A stretch of 60,311 bases of DNA, taken from Oscillospiraceae bacterium (GTDB taxonomy: Bacteria; Bacillota; Clostridia; Oscillospirales; Ruminococcaceae). Below the pieces are notes generated by a model. The model saw only the letters and a list, made by a program, of their open reading frames with translations. It searched no databases and was not told where the DNA came from. Positions within the stretch are counted from its first letter, which is position 1. Every line of letters starts with the position of its first letter. Positions 4,272-16,570 of the stretch are shown here, one piece after another. The position numbers were made by a program, and so were the translations under genes. The stretch is taken from assembly GCA_024695445.1 (NCBI GenBank), contig JAILIG010000096.1, forward strand, positions 1-60,311, in the 5' to 3' direction.

Positions 4272-4835
4272 TCAGGAAAGAACAGAAGCGGTGATGCAGG
4301 CAGCCGCCATGGAAAGCAGTCCTGCAGAAAGATATATCCCGCGCCATCCGCGGAAGACGGCCGGCGTCTGTTCGCTGCAAACAGCCGGTTTCAGGGCCTC
4401 CAGCATCGCAGCGGCAATGAAAAAGCCGGTGCCTTCTTTGATTCCGTAGGAAAAAGCAGAAGAAACGCCCGAAACGGAACCGTCACTGAGCCAAAGAATC
4501 CCAAGAATTGCACCGGAACAGGCGGCTGTCAGCAGATGCGGTTCGACTGCCGATGCGGATTCTTTCAGAAGTACGCGCAGCAATAAATCAACAGCCGCTG
4601 TCAGAAGCAAAGTCAGGCACACCGCAATGACTGCGGTCCACACGGGATCGGCAATCAGGCTTTGCAGCAGAAACAGCAGAACCGTGTTCAGCGGACAGAT
4701 GCACAGTACGAGCAGCGAAGAAGGCAGCAGGCTTTTCCCCCTTTGCGTCAAAAACGAAAAGCCTGATAAGCCGAGTAATCTGGTAAAGACAAGATTTTGC
4801 GTCAGAATCGTGAAGAATGCGACAGACATACGCAT
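4272..4835 (-). CDS. RnfA-like integral membrane protein (divergent paralogue)
   Basis: 187 residues, about six membrane segments. It aligns by eye with the canonical RnfA at 15164-15757: TQNLVFTRLLG matches TDNFVLSKFMG, and LLTAACSGAILG matches LITTNCAVLG. The paired Cys of the first motif (GCCPFLG in the canonical copy) are Leu and Ser here, while the Cys of the second motif is kept. In Rnf/Nqr complexes such Cys residues of the A/E subunits hold a [2Fe-2S] centre in the membrane, so this copy would lack one ligand. The ATG lies immediately after the stop of the RnfE-like gene, indicating tight co-translation. Function unknown; homology to RnfA/NqrE is likely, normal Rnf function is doubtful. 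Confidence 0.75.
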   Translation of the reverse strand: MRMSVAFFTILTQNLVFTRLLGLSGFSFLTQRGKSLLPSSLLVLCICPLNTVLLFLLQSLIADPVWTAVIAVCLTLLLTAAVDLLLRVLLKESASAVEPHLLTAACSGAILGILWLSDGSVSGVSSAFSYGIKEGTGFFIAAAMLEALKPAVCSEQTPAVFRGWRGIYLSAGLLSMAAACITASVLS

Positions 4836-5426
4836 TTATGCCGCCTCCTTTTCCGTCCGGAACGGCGCGCATACTGCGGCGCTGAGCATGACAGTCAGAA
4901 TGATGCCGCCGCACGGTGCCGCAAACAGCGGAACCGGCGCAGACGGGAATACCGTTCTGCCGAGCAAGGTGCCGGAGCCGAGCAGCTCCCGAAGTGTGCC
5001 CAGAATCAAAAATGCAGTGCAAACACCGGCCATACAGCAGAACAGGCTCAGCAGAAAAGATGTGAGCTTTTTTGGCACCAGCAGCTCCGTGCATGATTCA
5101 GAGAGCGCTGTGCACAGGATCAGCAGCGGCAGAAATACGCCAGCTTTGCCGACCTCCGAAGGATCAAACATAATCCGCGCCGACATGACAGCCGGTACAT
5201 ACACCAAACCGGCTGTTACGGAATAAACTAGAATGCGTACAGGAAACGGAACACGCAACGGTAAAAGCGCTGTCAGCGGAACAGAGAACAGCATCAGAAA
5301 TGCCAGAATATAAGAAAGTATCGCTGCGTGCAGCAGGCTGTCTGCAAAGCAGCAGGCAGCAGCGGCATAAAGCCCCTCAGTCAGCAGAAAGTTCCGCCGC
5401 AGGAACAGAGTCCCCTTCGGTTTCAT
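4836..5426 (-). CDS. RnfE-like integral membrane protein (divergent paralogue)
   Basis: 196 residues from the ATG at 5426, which has an AAAGGGGG-type site about 11 bases upstream. Multiple hydrophobic segments; the general layout follows the canonical RnfE at 14487-15167. LYAAAACCFADSL sits where canonical RnfE has LVGLLGICPVLAIT, and FLPLLILCTALSE where it has FLSLITVNCIILG, so Cys residues survive near both expected [2Fe-2S] ligand positions. FLILGTLRELLGSGTL closely parallels canonical SFREIIGSGTWFG. The start overlaps the RnfD-like gene by 50 bp, and the stop abuts the RnfA-like ATG. Predicted partner of the RnfA-like and RnfD-like proteins. No RnfB, RnfC or RnfG accompanies it here. Confidence 0.75.
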   Translation of the reverse strand: MKPKGTLFLRRNFLLTEGLYAAAACCFADSLLHAAILSYILAFLMLFSVPLTALLPLRVPFPVRILVYSVTAGLVYVPAVMSARIMFDPSEVGKAGVFLPLLILCTALSESCTELLVPKKLTSFLLSLFCCMAGVCTAFLILGTLRELLGSGTLLGRTVFPSAPVPLFAAPCGGIILTVMLSAAVCAPFRTEKEAA

Positions 5427-6351
5427 CCGGACAGACGCCCCCTTTCGTTTGTTCAAAGAGCTCCGGACGGCGCAGATACAGCGCCAGCGGCGCGACCAGG
5501 ACGGAAATCATGACCGGTGCGTCTGTCACAGCGAAGAAGAAGGTCATAATCAGGACGAGAATTCCGCAGAGCAGGCCGTACAGAAATCCGTAGAGGGATT
5601 TCGGGGCATACATCGGATCAGCGTACAGGAAGACAGCGGAAAACAGAGTCTGATTGGTCATCATGGACGCGGTACAGACCAGCAAGGGTGCGCGGAAGAG
5701 ATGCAGCATGACATTTCCGCCGCAGATGACTGTCAGCATCGGGAGCAGAACAGAAAGAGAAGCTGATCTGCGGAAGCACAGTACTGCCGCAATCACCAGC
5801 AAAAGCAAAACGGAGACAGAGCCGGTCGGAAGTCCGGCGGGGCCGGTCAGCCATTCCATAAAGTCAGACGGAAAATGTCCGGACGAATTCCACTTTTCCG
5901 ACAGACCGGCACCCTGTTCTACCGAATCCGCGAAATAGAGCGGGAGGATTCCTTTGCTGAGCGGAAACAGCCGCATCTGTACACCGGACTGCATCAGTCC
6001 GAAACAGTAGCCGACAGCCGCCGTCGGAAACAGCATTTGTTTCCGTCCGCCGAAAACCTGTCTGCCGATGATAATTGCAAAAACACAGGACAGAATAAGC
6101 AGAGAGACCGAAACAGTCGGCGGCATCAGCATATAAATCAGAATGCCGCATACCGCTGCATCCAGATGCCGGAATCCGAAACGCTCATGCCGCAGATACA
6201 GACAAATCAGCTCTGTCAGCATCGAAACGGCAGCGGCCAGTGTGCAGAAAACCAAAATACGCGGCCCGTAATCGAATGACGCAACCGCCATGATTGCAGC
6301 AAGCGCTGCGAACCGGTCGAGAATCTGCTCATGTTCAGGCTTTTTTCTCAA
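5377..6351 (-). CDS. RnfD-like integral membrane protein lacking the flavin-attachment motif
   Basis: 324 residues from TTG at 6351, preceded by AAAGGAG; first gene of the minus-strand operon. It is recognisably RnfD/NqrB-like: HLDAAVCGILIYMLMPPTVSV parallels DGSAAVTGLLVGLNLPPTIPV of the canonical copy at 13066, and RQVFGGRKQMLFPTAAVG parallels KQMFGGLGQNFANPAIVG. In canonical RnfD a Thr in an S-x-A-T motif is covalently flavinylated (here SSATPL in the 13066 gene). At the same place this protein has a segment with no S-G-A-T-like motif. The late segment MMTNQTLFSAVFLYADPMYAPKS parallels LMLGSIFMATDYVTSPITP. Probably a membrane subunit repurposed without covalent FMN; role unknown. Confidence 0.8.
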   Translation of the reverse strand: MRKKPEHEQILDRFAALAAIMAVASFDYGPRILVFCTLAAAVSMLTELICLYLRHERFGFRHLDAAVCGILIYMLMPPTVSVSLLILSCVFAIIIGRQVFGGRKQMLFPTAAVGYCFGLMQSGVQMRLFPLSKGILPLYFADSVEQGAGLSEKWNSSGHFPSDFMEWLTGPAGLPTGSVSVLLLLVIAAVLCFRRSASLSVLLPMLTVICGGNVMLHLFRAPLLVCTASMMTNQTLFSAVFLYADPMYAPKSLYGFLYGLLCGILVLIMTFFFAVTDAPVMISVLVAPLALYLRRPELFEQTKGGVCPDETEGDSVPAAELSAD

Positions 6352-11599: not shown

Positions 11600-11724
11600 C
11601 ATCTCCTAGTATTATACCATATTTTCTCTGAAATGAAAAGACCTATTTTTCAGCATTTGCATCCGGAGTTCTGAACAGATACGGCACGGTGCGCGGACTG
11701 CTGTCCGCTCGTGTACTGCCGCCC

Positions 11725-11744
11725 GCAGCTCCGGCTGCATTTTT
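11725..11744 (+). terminator. Weak terminator-like hairpin ahead of rnfC
   Basis: GCAGC and GCTGC with a four-base loop, followed by ATTTTT. It would separate the XRE gene from rnf. The rest of the gap 11600-11785 holds a small GCGGAC/GTCCGC hairpin; I found no convincing rnf promoter. Confidence 0.3.
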
Positions 11745-11785
11745 GCTGTGCAGCATTGATTCTTACTGAAAGGTTCTGTTCCCCT

Positions 11786-13069
11786 ATGAAACGACTTCAC
11801 GGCATTCAGTTGCCGCAGCGAAAGCACGCAGAAGCCCGGAAAATTGAGACGATTCCCCTCCCGAAGCTTGTGCGGATTCCGATGCTGATGCACCTCGGCA
11901 CCCCCTGTACTCCGATCGTCACAGTCGGTGAGCAGGTCTGCGTCGGCCAGAAAATCGGTGCCCCGGCCGATCAAAATGCCGTACCGATTCATGCTTCTGT
12001 ATCCGGCACGGTTCGTGCGATTACTGAATTCACCAATGTCAACGGCTCCAAGGTTCCCTGCGTCGAAATCGAGTCGGACGGTTTGCAAACACTGTATCCC
12101 GGCTGCAAGGCACCGGTTCTGGAAACCCGTGAACAGTTTGTGCAGGCAGTCCGTGAATCCGGCTGTGTCGGACTCGGCGGTGCCGGCTTTCCGACCTTCC
12201 GCAAACTCAATGAACCGCAGAAAATCAGTATGCTGATTGTAAACGGTGCGGAGTGTGAGCCGTATCTGACCGGAGACAGCCGGCAGATCATTGAAAACTC
12301 CGGCGATATCCTTGGCGGAATCCATCTTGTGATGCAGTTTCTGAACATCAAAGAGTGCAAAATCGGGATCGAAAGCACTCGCCCCGCTGCTTTAAAGCAG
12401 CTCGCCTATGCAGTCGCCGCGGAAGAAAACATCACCGTTTGTCCGCTGCCGCCGGTCTATCCGCAGGGCGCGGAAAAGGTTCTGATTTATCATACAAGTG
12501 CCCGGATTGTTCCGGAGGACAAAATGCCGGCCGATCTCGGCATCCTGGTTATGAACATCAGCACACTGGCCTTTTTGTATCAGTATTCCCGCACCGGCAT
12601 TCCGCTGGTGGAACGCGTCGTAACCGTAGACGGAAATGCCGTCAAAAAGCCGTGCAATCTGCGTGTCCCGATCGGCACACCGCAGCATGACCTGCTGAAA
12701 TACGCTGACTGTAATTTTGATAAAGTGAAAAAACTGCTGTCTGGCGGCCCGATGATGGGAATTACACTGTATTCCGATGAACTGCCGGTCTTAAAGCAGC
12801 AGAACGGTCTGCTGGCCCTGACTCGCGTTTCGCACAGTGAGCCGACAGCCTGTATCCGCTGCGGCCGGTGTATGAACGCCTGTCCGATGCGCCTGATGCC
12901 GATGGAGCTTTCCCGTGCATATCACAAAAAAGACGCAGAAATGCTCCGGACGCTTCGGCTTTCACTCTGCATGAACTGCGGATGCTGCACCTATGTGTGC
13001 CCGGCGAAACGACCGCTTGCGGAAGAAAACCAGCTCGCCAAGCAATTTCTGAAGGAGGTTGAATCATGA
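11786..13069 (+). CDS. rnfC: Rnf complex subunit C (NADH-binding, Fe-S)
   Basis: 427 residues. Peripheral subunit of the Rnf ferredoxin:NAD oxidoreductase; binds NAD(H) and FMN and passes electrons through two [4Fe-4S] clusters. Visible: the N-terminal lipoyl-like RnfC domain, GLGGAGFPT (about 129-137, FMN/NADH loop), VNGAECEPYLTGD, and two ferredoxin motifs CIRCGRCMNACP and CMNCGCCTYVCP near the C terminus. ATG at 11786 starts the conserved MKRLHGIQLP sequence; AAAGG lies about 12 bases upstream, and a frame extension to 11711 is not conserved-looking. First gene of rnfCDGEAB; its stop overlaps the rnfD ATG (ATGA). Confidence 0.95.
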   Translation: MKRLHGIQLPQRKHAEARKIETIPLPKLVRIPMLMHLGTPCTPIVTVGEQVCVGQKIGAPADQNAVPIHASVSGTVRAITEFTNVNGSKVPCVEIESDGLQTLYPGCKAPVLETREQFVQAVRESGCVGLGGAGFPTFRKLNEPQKISMLIVNGAECEPYLTGDSRQIIENSGDILGGIHLVMQFLNIKECKIGIESTRPAALKQLAYAVAAEENITVCPLPPVYPQGAEKVLIYHTSARIVPEDKMPADLGILVMNISTLAFLYQYSRTGIPLVERVVTVDGNAVKKPCNLRVPIGTPQHDLLKYADCNFDKVKKLLSGGPMMGITLYSDELPVLKQQNGLLALTRVSHSEPTACIRCGRCMNACPMRLMPMELSRAYHKKDAEMLRTLRLSLCMNCGCCTYVCPAKRPLAEENQLAKQFLKEVES

Positions 13070-13989
13070 ATCTGCTTCAGGCATCGGCCTCTCCGCATGA
13101 GCGCACCCCGCTTCGGACCGGCCATATTATGGGCCTTGTACTGCTGGCACTGCTGCCGGCCGCAGTCCATGGCTGTTTCAGCTTCGGGCTTCAGGCAATG
13201 TTTGTTCTGCTTGCGACAACCGGTTCCGCTGTACTGTTTGAATGTGCAGCCAGACTGATTTTCCGCCGCCCGCAGACTATTCTGGACGGGAGCGCTGCCG
13301 TTACCGGCCTGCTGGTTGGTCTGAATCTCCCTCCGACCATTCCGGTGTGGCAGGCAGTGATCGGCAGTTTTGCCGCGATCGTTGTCGTCAAGCAGATGTT
13401 CGGCGGACTTGGCCAGAATTTCGCAAACCCGGCGATCGTCGGACGGATCGTGCTGATGATCTCGTTCCCCTCAGCCATGACTGCATGGACCGGAGCCGGA
13501 ACAGACGCGGTATCCTCGGCGACACCGCTGGTCTCCGGCAATGCGGAATACTGGGATTTGTTTTTGGGAAATACAGCCGGATGTATCGGCGAATCCTGTG
13601 CCGCAGCGCTCCTGTTAGGCGGCATTTTCCTCTGCATCTGGCGTGTTATCACGCCGGTGATCCCGCTGAGTTATCTTGGCTCGTTCGCACTGTTCACATG
13701 GCTTAGCGGCAATGATCCGCTCTATCAGGTGCTGTCCGGCGGACTGATGCTCGGTTCGATTTTCATGGCCACAGATTATGTGACTTCTCCGATCACACCT
13801 TTCGGCAAACTGATTTTCGGCATCGGCTGCGGCGGCCTGACATTTTTGCTGCGGCAGTTCAGCGGATACCCGGAAGGCGTATCGTTTGCAATTCTCCTGA
13901 TGAATCTGCTTACACCTTATATTGACCGCTTTACGCGCATCAAACCCTTCGGTGCCGTAACCGGAGAGAAGGAAGCGTCCAATGAATGA
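13066..13989 (+). CDS. rnfD: Rnf complex subunit D (covalent flavin membrane subunit)
   Basis: 307 residues, about nine to ten membrane helices. The motif DAVSSATPL contains Thr153, the position at which RnfD carries phosphoester-linked FMN. Other family landmarks: LDGSAAVTGLLVGLNLPP, KQMFGGLGQNFANPA, and MATDYVTSPITPFGK. It overlaps rnfC by 4 bp and rnfG by 8 bp. This intact copy is the reference against which the RnfD-like protein at 5377-6351 lacks the flavin site. Confidence 0.95.
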   Translation: MNLLQASASPHERTPLRTGHIMGLVLLALLPAAVHGCFSFGLQAMFVLLATTGSAVLFECAARLIFRRPQTILDGSAAVTGLLVGLNLPPTIPVWQAVIGSFAAIVVVKQMFGGLGQNFANPAIVGRIVLMISFPSAMTAWTGAGTDAVSSATPLVSGNAEYWDLFLGNTAGCIGESCAAALLLGGIFLCIWRVITPVIPLSYLGSFALFTWLSGNDPLYQVLSGGLMLGSIFMATDYVTSPITPFGKLIFGIGCGGLTFLLRQFSGYPEGVSFAILLMNLLTPYIDRFTRIKPFGAVTGEKEASNE

Positions 13990-14497
13990 CCGTATCAAAG
14001 GCCCGATTGCACTGACGCTGATTTGCAGTGCCGTCTGTGCGCTGCTCGCCGGCGCGCATCTCCTGACCGATGACCGGATCCGGGATACAGAAGCTGTCCG
14101 TCTCCAGCAGGCTTTGAGTGAAGCCTTCGGGGAGGGGCAGTATACCGCACTGAATGTAAAATATGACGGAATCTCACAGGTGATCCGCGACGATTCCGAC
14201 CGGCTGATTTTCGATCTGGTCTCCAGCGGATATGAGAAAGGCAGTCAGCATCTTCTGATCGGCATTTCCGACGGTGCCGTTTCAAAAGTGCATCTTGTTT
14301 CGATTTCGGATTCTCCGACACAGGCTGCCGCAGTCTCAGAACCGGACTTTTTGGATCAGTTTACCGGATGGACCGATCCGGACTCGGATTACGATGCTGT
14401 TTCGGGGGCAACCAAGTCTTCGGAGGGAATCCGTCAGGCAGTTGCCCGCGCACTGCGCACATATTATGAAAACAGGGAGATTACCGATGATGCGTAA
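13982..14497 (+). CDS. rnfG: Rnf complex subunit G (FMN-binding)
   Basis: 171 residues. One N-terminal membrane anchor (about 8-28), then an extracytoplasmic FMN-binding domain. DAVSGATKSS contains the S-G-A-T flavinylation motif with Thr144. It relays electrons between RnfD and the membrane part of the complex. Start overlaps the end of rnfD; the stop overlaps the start of rnfE. Slightly short but complete. Confidence 0.93.
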   Translation: MNDRIKGPIALTLICSAVCALLAGAHLLTDDRIRDTEAVRLQQALSEAFGEGQYTALNVKYDGISQVIRDDSDRLIFDLVSSGYEKGSQHLLIGISDGAVSKVHLVSISDSPTQAAAVSEPDFLDQFTGWTDPDSDYDAVSGATKSSEGIRQAVARALRTYYENREITDDA

Positions 14498-15167
14498 AAC
14501 AAAGTCTGTTTCCCTCTGGCAGGAATTCAGCAAAGGAATCCTGCGTGAAAACCCCAATCTTGTCGGACTGCTCGGAATCTGTCCGGTTCTGGCAATTACA
14601 CAGGAGGCACGGAATGCGCTCGGCATGGGAATCGCCACGACCTTTGTTCTGATCTGCTCAAACGCCGTTATTTCCATGCTGCGCAAGGTGATTCCGCAGA
14701 CGGTGAAGCTGTCAGCCTACATCGTGATTATTGCAGGCTTTGTGACACTGACACAGTTCCTGCTGCACGGCTATGCACCGGAGCTGTACTCTGCGCTTGG
14801 CACCTTTCTCTCTCTGATTACGGTCAACTGCATCATTCTGGGGCGGGCGGAGGTGTTTGCCGGCAAGAACGGCGTATTCCGTTCCGTACTGGACGGTGCC
14901 GGCATGGGAATCGGATTTACCCTGTCTTTGCTTCTGGTCAGTTCATTCCGTGAAATCATCGGTTCCGGCACATGGTTCGGCATCCCGCTGACCGGCGAAT
15001 ACAAGGTTGCCCTGCTGCGCTCTGCGCCGGGCGGTTTCTTTGCGCTTGGCTGTATCATTGCGCTGGTCAGTGCCCTGCTCCGGAAAAAGCCGCCGGAGGG
15101 CATCGGCTGCAACGGCTGTCCGAATGCAGATACCTGTGCTGCATCGAAGGGAGGCTGTTCCAGATGA
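14487..15167 (+). CDS. rnfE: Rnf complex subunit E
   Basis: 226 residues from the ATG at 14487, which has AGGGAG just upstream; a longer upstream frame only shadows rnfG. Six predicted membrane helices. Conserved LLGICPVLAIT and SLITVNCIILGRAE supply the Cys ligands for the membrane [2Fe-2S] centre shared with RnfA. The C-terminal tail is Cys-rich (GCNGCPNADTC), which is worth noting as a possible metal or disulfide site. ATGA overlap with rnfA. Confidence 0.94.
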   Translation: MMRKTKSVSLWQEFSKGILRENPNLVGLLGICPVLAITQEARNALGMGIATTFVLICSNAVISMLRKVIPQTVKLSAYIVIIAGFVTLTQFLLHGYAPELYSALGTFLSLITVNCIILGRAEVFAGKNGVFRSVLDGAGMGIGFTLSLLLVSSFREIIGSGTWFGIPLTGEYKVALLRSAPGGFFALGCIIALVSALLRKKPPEGIGCNGCPNADTCAASKGGCSR

Positions 15168-15757
15168 CGGTTCTCGGCATTATACTGTCAGCCATCCTGA
15201 CCGATAATTTTGTCCTGTCCAAATTTATGGGCTGCTGTCCGTTTCTCGGTGTCTCCCAGAAAATCAGCAGCAGCATCGGAATGGGCGCCGCAGTGATCTT
15301 TGTTATGACCTGCTCGACTGCAATCACCTACCCTGTCTATATGTATCTGCTGGTTCCGAACGGCCTCGAATATCTGCAGACATTGGCCTTTATCCTGATT
15401 ATCGCACTGTTCGTGCAGCTCGCGGAGATGTTTGTCCGGAAATGTTTCCCGCCTCTGCACCGCACGCTCGGCATCTATCTGCCGCTGATTACCACAAACT
15501 GTGCCGTCCTCGGCGTCACGATTCTCAATGTAGATCTGTTTGCTGCATCGGAATCGTTTCTGACCGGATATCTCCATGCGCTGCTGTATGCCGCCTGTGC
15601 AGGCGTCGGTTTTACACTGGCACTGATTCTGTTTGCCGGAGTCCGGAGCCGCATGGAAGATGCCGATATTCCGGCGTTTTTCAAAGGCACACCTGCCACA
15701 CTGATCGCAGCCTCGATTGTATCGCTGAGTTTTATGGCGTTTTCGGGCATGAGCTGA
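15164..15757 (+). CDS. rnfA: Rnf complex subunit A
   Basis: 197 residues, six membrane helices. TDNFVLSKFMGCCPFLGVS and LITTNCAVLGV are the typical RnfA motifs with Cys ligands of the [2Fe-2S] centre formed with RnfE. GGGAGG lies ten bases before the ATG at 15164, which overlaps the rnfE stop. Forms part of the ion-translocating membrane core. Confidence 0.95.
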   Translation: MTVLGIILSAILTDNFVLSKFMGCCPFLGVSQKISSSIGMGAAVIFVMTCSTAITYPVYMYLLVPNGLEYLQTLAFILIIALFVQLAEMFVRKCFPPLHRTLGIYLPLITTNCAVLGVTILNVDLFAASESFLTGYLHALLYAACAGVGFTLALILFAGVRSRMEDADIPAFFKGTPATLIAASIVSLSFMAFSGMS

Positions 15758-15769
15758 GAGGAGACGGGT

Positions 15770-16570
15770 ATGGAACAGATCTTACTGCCGGCCGTGATTT
15801 TTGCAGGCATCGGACTGATTGCAGCGCTGCTGCTGACCGTTGCCTCCGGGATTTTTGCAGTCAAGGAAGATCCGCGGGTGCAAAAGATTGACGCGGAGCT
15901 CCCGCACGCAAACTGCGGAGCCTGCGGTTATGCCGGATGTTCGGAATATGCGGCGGCGATCGTGAAGGAAAATGCGCTCTGTAATCTCTGCAAGCCGGGC
16001 GGAAATGATACGGCAGCTGCCGTTGCGGAAATCATGGGACAGGAAGCTCAGCCGATTCCGTCTGAAATCGCCGTGCTGGCCTGCCGCGGAAACTGCAATG
16101 CCGCGGCAGAAAAATATGCCTATCACGGGATTCACACCTGCAAAGCTGCCAAAAAGATGTTCGGCGGAAGCAAATTCTGCACTTACGGCTGTATCGGCTA
16201 CGGCGACTGTGCAGAAGTCTGTCCGCACGGTGCCATTACAATTCAGGACGGAATTGCTGACATTCAACCGGGGCTTTGCGATGCCTGCGGGCTGTGTGCA
16301 AAAGCCTGCCCGAACCGGCTGATCCGCTTCCGGCCGACCGGAAAACATTTTGATGTGCGCTGCTCCTCACCTTCTGCGGGAAAAACCGTCCGTCTGATCT
16401 GCAAAAACGGATGTATCGGCTGCAAGGTCTGTGAACGGAAATGCCTGCACCGCGCCATCACCGTTGTGCAGAATCTTGCCGTGATTGATTACGATAAATG
16501 TACCGGATGCGGCGTATGCAGAGATGCCTGTCCGACCGGTGCGATCTGCTGCTGCGAGGACACAAATTAG
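15770..16570 (+). CDS. rnfB: Rnf complex subunit B (ferredoxin-accepting, polyferredoxin)
   Basis: 266 residues. N-terminal membrane helix (about 5-28), then the Fe-S domain CGACGYAGCSEYA...CNLC, followed by four ferredoxin-type cysteine sets: CTYGCIGYGDCAEVCP, CDACGLCAKACP, CKNGCIGCKVCERKC and CTGCGVCRDACP. RnfB takes electrons from reduced ferredoxin and feeds the complex. GAGGAG precedes the ATG. Last gene of the operon, followed by a strong terminator. Gene order C-D-G-E-A-B matches that of other clostridial Rnf operons. Confidence 0.95.
   Translation: MEQILLPAVIFAGIGLIAALLLTVASGIFAVKEDPRVQKIDAELPHANCGACGYAGCSEYAAAIVKENALCNLCKPGGNDTAAAVAEIMGQEAQPIPSEIAVLACRGNCNAAAEKYAYHGIHTCKAAKKMFGGSKFCTYGCIGYGDCAEVCPHGAITIQDGIADIQPGLCDACGLCAKACPNRLIRFRPTGKHFDVRCSSPSAGKTVRLICKNGCIGCKVCERKCLHRAITVVQNLAVIDYDKCTGCGVCRDACPTGAICCCEDTN

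Follow-up and report, generated by a model that had tools for sequence, protein, structure and literature searches.

The question raised by contig JAILIG010000096.1 of an Oscillospiraceae bacterium (assembly GCA_024695445.1), analysed over its positions 1 to 60,311 and referred to below as the window, is what is encoded by three adjacent minus-strand genes (D, E and A; positions 4272 - 6351) that resemble rnfD, rnfE and rnfA of the complete rnfCDGEAB operon found, as initially annotated, about 5 kilobases (kb) away. That initial annotation had described them as an orphan triad encoding a reduced Rnf-derived membrane complex without normal Rnf electron transfer. The triad turned out to be no orphan, as it forms three quarters of a conserved four-gene operon, D-E-A-H. 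The core proposal, a reduced complex that does not perform the usual Rnf electron transfer, draws support from the missing E and A cysteine ligands of all readable D-E-A-H relatives, from purifying selection in the pairs tested, and from the recurrence of the unit without the B, C and G genes. Comparison of sequences and structure models makes it moderately probable that the product is a derivative of Rnf that is redox-dead and acts together with H in the cell envelope, perhaps conducting an ion or a small solute.

A first line of evidence comes from the three membrane proteins of the window. Their homology to RnfD, RnfE and RnfA, as proposed initially, was confirmed by hidden Markov model scores above the cut-offs of the Pfam families PF03116 and PF02508 (Table 1). 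The same scores rule out a chance resemblance. However, the scores are far under the NCBIfam cut-offs for rnfD (64.1 against 207.05 bits), rnfE (24.3 against 213.4 bits) and rnfA (40.5 against 229.3 bits), all three of which are reached by the canonical operon of the window, and they do not reach the equivalog cut-offs for nqrB (27.7 against 349.9 bits), nqrD (20.4 against 244.85 bits) and nqrE (14 against 247.55 bits) either. Within the window's genome (89% complete), PF03116 matches occurred at two places only, namely the triad D and the canonical RnfD. No rnfB, rnfC or rnfG gene was found in the triad operon as far as the contig extends, in agreement with the initial annotation; the possibility that these genes lie elsewhere in the same operon was ruled out by the neighbourhood in the window and the gene content of relatives.

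The redox ligands are missing as well. According to a review, cysteines in half-helices of RnfA and RnfE jointly hold a mid-membrane [2Fe-2S] cluster (PMC12174285). Alignment to the canonical copies of the window placed A-G-L-S where RnfD has the flavin motif S-S-A-T, GLSGFSF where RnfA has GCCPFLG, Gly at the second RnfA Cys (TTNC), and Ala and Thr at the two columns where RnfE has Cys. The window triad retains 0/4 of the Cys ligands of the RnfA-RnfE cluster, whereas the SSAT of D, the Cys pair of E and the Cys columns of A are all intact in the canonical operon. The missing S-x-A-T and the Leu-Ser replacement of the RnfA Cys pair had been recognised correctly in the initial annotation; the loss of both RnfE cysteines had been overlooked, as had the membership of the fourth gene, H, in the unit.

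A second line of evidence is the recurrence of the unit. Loci were fetched with flanks for the best 20 D matches in the genus and the best 20 in the family, which is not a random draw. The genus loci comprised 14 D-E-A-H operons, two loci cut by a contig end (L057 and L064) and four with D and H only (L066, L068, L069 and L070); the family loci comprised 13 D-E-A-H operons, five C-D-E-A-H operons (L080, L083, L084, L087 and L089), one cut locus (L077) and one without H (L079), so that RnfC was absent from most family loci fetched. In addition, a contig scan of public genomes was performed with an A-type alignment, of which the best 80 of 244 relatives were kept, representing Ruminococcus and other Oscillospiraceae or Clostridia records, including R. 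flavefaciens FD-1, YRD2003 and MC2020. D-E-A-H in this order on one strand was found in 72 of these 80 loci, which bears out the recurrence of D-E-A without B, C and G; the other eight were cut by a contig end (six), had a split E (L190) or lacked H (L159). A C-like gene scoring above 60 bits was found in 1/80 scan loci (L198), and G-like and B-like genes in 0/80. Eight scan loci were family loci fetched earlier and remain as duplicates in the 108-row column counts of D given below. Among 61 genomes of the family, each representing its own genus, 46 possessed a triad-type D, 11 only another D match, and four none; triad-type was called by score (at least 240 bits in the 46, at most 228 in the next rows), with the neighbourhood not checked for all 46, and five of them (G000, G048, G050, G080 and G082) had supplied rows to the search alignment. 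In a phylum search with the A profile, the score could not separate triad-type from canonical RnfA.

It is well supported that four genomes belonging to the same genus as the window have neither A nor E at the locus. A genome-wide search of these four genomes and of G015, which covered the A-type profile and not E, gave matches in G024 only, at the canonical locus; in the other four genomes, A may be absent or may have been missed, since the profile found no canonical RnfA there either.

Thirdly, ligand loss follows gene content. Operon types were assigned locus by locus. Cut loci without C were counted as D-E-A-H, together with L331 and with L328, in which nothing but A and H could be seen; membership of the canonical class (L203 - L255) was decided by D similarity, and ligands were counted over distinct sequences, excluding gapped columns. 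Canonical-type loci kept the E cysteines in 54/54, the first A Cys in 32/32 and the D Thr in 57/57 sequences, and a G-like gene was present in 47/53 of the loci. Similarly, in complete rnf operons followed by H (C-D-G-E-A-B-H), the E cysteines, the first A Cys and the D Thr were each kept in 12/12, and a gene matching the G model was present in 12/12. In C-D-E-A-H operons, by contrast, the E cysteines and the first A Cys were each found in 0/9, the D Thr in 2/9 and x-A-T in 0/9; D-E-A-H operons had the two E cysteines in 0/99 and 0/100, the first A Cys in 0/102 and the D Thr in 0/99, and loci with D and H only had the D Thr in 0/4. Three of the four [2Fe-2S] ligands are gone in every readable D-E-A-H relative. 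Furthermore, D columns R127, E176 and T153 were kept in 0/108 D-E-A-H rows, eight of which are duplicates; within the stretch that reads FMATD in the canonical copy, F233 was kept in 91/108 and D237 in 96/108. It is well supported that RnfB and RnfG are missing jointly with the flavin motif of RnfD and the [2Fe-2S] ligands inside the membrane. Ligands were intact in every operon in which RnfB was found, and lost in every locus of the C-D-E-A-H, D-E-A-H and D-H types, all without RnfB; among G-less or G-containing canonical-type loci, RnfB was searched in the six G-less ones only, the stretches of the other 47 being too short.

H was also encountered behind complete rnf operons. Searches of the order and class with H led to 40 fetched loci, one of which (L352) was a family genome without H. 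A complete rnfCDGEAB was directly followed by H in L319, L320, L322, L323, L327, L333, L336, L340, L342 and L343; the same arrangement was cut at a contig end in L324 and L341. Of the five class-level loci, L346 alone had H at most 1.5 kb away from an rnf gene, in the arrangement C-D-G-E-A-B-H, L344 had H 2 kb further on, L345 had no room, and L347 and L348 had none. At order level, 26 loci had an H of at least 40 bits and upstream room (34 loci minus L338, L339, L349, L350, L351 and L353, with H below 40 bits or none, and L315 and L321, without upstream room), and an rnf gene lay within 1.5 kb in 17 of these. Outside the window's family, C-D-E-A-H without G and B was encountered in L317, L318 and L330, and D-E-A-H, with a split E, in L331. 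A relationship of the locus to Rnf operons that carry H as an extra 3' gene is well supported. As an observation in its own right, a DUF4015 gene directly 3' of a ligand-intact rnfCDGEAB occurs in several Clostridia families (L319, L320, L322, L323, L336, L340 and L346).

Phylogenetic trees were built from 85 of 190 D sequences, rooted at the midpoint, and from 77 of 184 E sequences. In the D tree, canonical and C-D-G-E-A-B-H rows stood together, with the C-D-E-A-H loci L317 and L318 next to them, followed by the C-D-E-A-H loci of the family mixed with D-E-A-H rows L088, L090, L174, L184 and L331, and then by the main D-E-A-H group, within which D-H appeared twice inside the window's genus. 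All degenerate rows except L330 fell on one side of a branch with support 100/99. L330, of the C-D-E-A-H type, was placed among C-D-G-E-A-B-H rows of its own family, but a single clade of all degenerate D rows was not rejected (p-AU, the approximately unbiased test, 0.275). The E tree had the same outline, with long branches and with L330 on the degenerate side; because of this placement and the p-AU value, two independent losses of redox function are not claimed. The RnfE-type protein of L330 (4632 - 6194) bears an N-terminal low-complexity extension of about 320 residues, rich in Ala, Pro and Lys. With a midpoint root, it is gene content and the loss of ligands that indicate in which direction the change went.

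Lastly, selection on D, E, A and H was examined. The ratio of nonsynonymous to synonymous substitution rates (dN/dS) was 0.03 - 0.18 for all four genes in eight close pairs (H in seven of the eight), none from the window's genus and some with dS near or above 1. Purifying selection on the four genes is well supported in the tested pairs.

A possible role of the unit may be sought in H and D. H passes the gathering score of DUF4015 (PF13200) and has a triosephosphate isomerase (TIM)-barrel fold, scoring 31.7 bits as against 406.8 for the L346 relative. Its AlphaFold2 model (predicted local distance difference test, pLDDT, 83.9) consists of a long helix (residues 33 - 69), a linker and a confident barrel from about residue 129, and the mean majority frequency was 0.50 for the helix, 0.46 for the barrel and 0.25 for the linker. 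Foldseek neighbours were 4s1a, the hydrolase domain of Cwp19 and GH191 enzymes and, lower, the hydrolase domain of PelA; a sequence search against solved structures gave weak matches only. The stretch L-C-Y-D-I-A-F-P of the window's H corresponds to Q-Y-D-Y-V-R-F-P in L346, and residues K165, D216, W249 and E267 show full or near-full conservation, which does not establish the catalytic residues of DUF4015. The AlphaFold2 model of D (pLDDT 88.1) matched RnfD and NqrB first (RnfD 8ahx_D, TMq 0.77; 7zc6_D, TMt 0.81; template modelling scores) and urea transporters next. According to a review, RnfA-E is symporter-like and RnfD is related to ammonium and urea transporters (PMC12174285). It is moderately likely that D and H are partners, since these two genes persist together where the others are gone and the helix of H is as conserved as its barrel. 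H may sit where RnfG sat, each of the two proteins combining a single N-terminal membrane helix with a domain on the outside. Less certainly, D, with its fold related to urea and ammonium channels, would pass an ion or a small solute without electron transfer, together with the A/E dimer where this is present, and the glycosidase-like barrel of H would couple, gate or use this passage at the cell wall, equally less certainly. The fullest version of this scenario, which is doubtful, holds that a respiratory ion pump became an electron-free machine in steps still visible in living relatives, an RnfD channel with or without the symporter-like A/E dimer using or gating an ion gradient and thereby driving or controlling a glycosidase-like H at the cell surface, seated in place of the flavin shuttle RnfG.

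Several observations weigh against such a redox-dead unit built around H. The steps are not strictly linear, as D-E-A-H rows L088, L090, L174 and L184 fall among C-D-E-A-H rows in the D tree; for that reason, RnfC may have been lost more than once, and the gene-loss series, as read from these sequences, is a trend, not a strict ladder. H had no adjacent rnf gene in 9/26 order-level loci with room, was absent downstream in L159 and L079 (the same genome), and lay 2.2 kb off in L123. A simple exchange of G for H is contradicted by six phylum-level C-D-E-A-B operons without G and H, in which all ligands are intact. An operon can thus do without G, or have it encoded elsewhere, while possessing no H and keeping its ligands, and the ligands disappear along with B, not with G alone. 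A tie of ligand loss to G and B alike was ruled out by the same operons. In these loci (L358 - L363), no RnfG lies between or beside the other genes, and the Fe-S and RnfD flavin motifs are kept. The second RnfA Cys is retained in 79/102 D-E-A-H copies; it is also kept in 4/9 C-D-E-A-H copies. The D loop aligns poorly, and a different alignment of 117 rows filled the flavin column with Thr in 48 and with Ser in 46; a string [STDN]-x-A-T occurs in 2/116 readable D loops, one of which, in L051 of the same genus, is a true S-G-A-T. The E and A Cys columns are free of this alignment problem. As a side observation, the flavin site of the canonical-type RnfD of L058 (16346 - 17311), also of this genus, reads T-R-V-T where S-x-A-T would be usual. 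Finally, RnfC of the C-D-E-A-H types keeps its [4Fe-4S] domains in the six tested; since D N118 and N121 are kept too, in 9/9 each, these intermediates may have retained electron transfer at the cytoplasmic face. The RnfC-like proteins of L080 and L084 are shortened, with ferredoxin-type [4Fe-4S] domains kept and a weak match to the FMN/NADH domain, the pieces having been scanned from the model match and not from the frame start.

These retained features speak for another redox complex, in which D would keep a flavin (riboflavin, or flavin mononucleotide (FMN) on Ser) and pass electrons from an unknown cytosolic donor to an outside acceptor. A string [STDNAE]-G-x-[ST] is present in 20/116 flavin loops, including that of the window, L051 has its S-G-A-T, and the genome of the window has a gene for ApbE at another place. 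D-E-A-H operons, however, are without C and their [2Fe-2S] ligands, and no FMN_bind (RnfG-like) protein was found in degenerate loci. D N118 and N121, which presumably contact riboflavin, are kept in 9/108 and 39/108 D-E-A-H rows, as against all C-D-E-A-H rows, indicating that they were lost together with RnfC; R127, T153 and E176 are gone throughout. This explanation is rather unlikely. Of the options given by the initial annotation, a different redox partner is the least convincing one for the window, which has neither C, G and B nor the ligands. Less probable still is that H, as an envelope glycosidase, is the real unit, merely anchored or exported by D, E and A: H is present in every operon type and also without adjacent rnf genes, and hydrolases of cell-envelope and amino-sugar type are among the neighbours of its fold, but it owns a membrane helix already and purifying selection on D, E and A is equally strong. 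Hardly better, and quite improbable, is an accessory of canonical Rnf, i.e., a pseudo-complex for assembly, inhibition or regulation that pairs with Rnf subunits. The canonical operon is nearby in the window and also near the triad in L051 and L058, and another D match occurs in 42 of the 46 genomes with a triad-type D; the other four (G030, G072, G075 and G081; 66 - 89% complete) have the triad-type only, however, and in the other 18/20 genus loci the fetched stretch, in several cases a short one, showed no rnf gene of the canonical kind. A decaying, functionless pseudo-operon, to which strong divergence and gene loss might point, is rejected by the dN/dS values of the eight pairs tested, while the open frames of the window and the spread of triad-type D over 46/61 genera make it a negligible prospect.

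Compared with known systems, the D-E-A-H unit is best regarded, on its gene content and sequences, as a variant derived from Rnf and not as Rnf; it lacks tested defining features of Rnf, NQR and flavinylated clusters. Its D, E and A are homologous to subunits of the Rnf complex (RnfABCDGE; 7zc6, 9eri and 8ahx), D has the RnfD fold, and the intermediates have the C-D-E-A order; unlike Rnf, it lacks B, C, G, the [2Fe-2S] ligands and the RnfD S-x-A-T, stays below the rnfA, rnfD and rnfE cut-offs, and has H in addition. Mrp antiporters and complex I likewise join a non-redox relative to a redox-driven ion pump; there, the non-redox module is usually seen as older, which differs from D-E-A-H, where redox function appears to have been lost. 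Na+-NQR is also an rnf-derived paralogue, proposed to have arisen by rnf duplication and RnfB loss (PMC4014512), but it keeps the [2Fe-2S] cluster, both FMNs and NqrF, which D-E-A-H lost with no new electron donor seen. NQR/RNF-like flavinylation clusters are partial Rnf/Nqr systems around an NqrB/RnfD protein as well; in them, this protein is fused to the NAD domain of NqrF and accompanied by an FMN-binding protein (PMC8238504), neither of which is present in the triad unit, whose D carries PF03116 only among Pfam domains, without a fused NqrF NAD domain. H resembles DUF4015 and GH114-GH191-like TIM-barrel hydrolases, from which it differs by its membrane anchor, its place in an Rnf-derived operon and its far lower score than L346. 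No description of the D-E-A-H unit was found in literature searches, made largely by listings.

Table 1. Positions, strand and basis of assignment of the genes of the D-E-A-H operon and of the canonical rnf operon in the window
Feature	Positions	Strand	Basis
D: RnfD/NqrB-type membrane protein, 324 amino acids (aa), without S-x-A-T flavin motif	5377..6351	-	Pfam PF03116 117.9 bits (cut-off 27.7)
E: RnfE-type membrane protein, 206 aa counted from TTG, both [2Fe-2S] Cys absent	4836..5456	-	Pfam PF02508 36.9 bits (cut-off 23.8)
A: RnfA-type membrane protein, 187 aa, both [2Fe-2S] Cys positions replaced (Leu-Ser; Gly)	4272..4835	-	Pfam PF02508 35.0 bits (cut-off 23.8)
H: one N-terminal membrane helix, linker and outside DUF4015-type TIM barrel, 429 aa	2950..4239	-	Pfam PF13200 31.7 bits (cut-off 27), AlphaFold2, Foldseek
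Complete canonical rnfCDGEAB operon, ligand-intact comparison	11711..16570	+	Pfam, NCBIfam

Within the operon (Table 1), an ATG at 5426 is the probable start of E, and H begins 32 bases past the A gene. The triad is flanked upstream by a divergent mecA and downstream by H, which is followed by a gene running off the contig end (1 - 2913) that codes for a subtilisin-type protease with BspA-like leucine-rich repeats; large open reading frames after H were also noticed in several relatives of the genus. FMN_bind matches in the window's genome were two, the canonical RnfG and a 445-aa protein on contig C188 (L356), which matches ferric-reductase-like proteins weakly and carries its FMN_bind domain at the C-terminus. 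The latter gene adjoins apbE, and both probably represent a separate flavin-based electron transfer system.

The coupling of electron and ion transfer in Rnf and Nqr is disputed, including whether the ion route runs via RnfD or RnfA-E, as outlined in a review (PMC12174285). Relatives that possess D, with or without E and A, under purifying selection and with the intramembrane Fe-S ligands lost, are test objects for this coupling: if they still conduct an ion or a solute, the conducting part would be identified without redox chemistry. Concerning annotation, family-level 'Rnf-Nqr' calls overcount Rnf in these genomes. Many Ruminococcus-type bacteria of gut and rumen keep a second copy of the membrane core of a respiratory ion pump, which seems rebuilt for an electron-free job. 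In such bacteria, Ruminococcus flavefaciens among them, the D-E-A-H unit would show a respiratory pump turning into a non-redox envelope complex, and intermediates of this change are already available.

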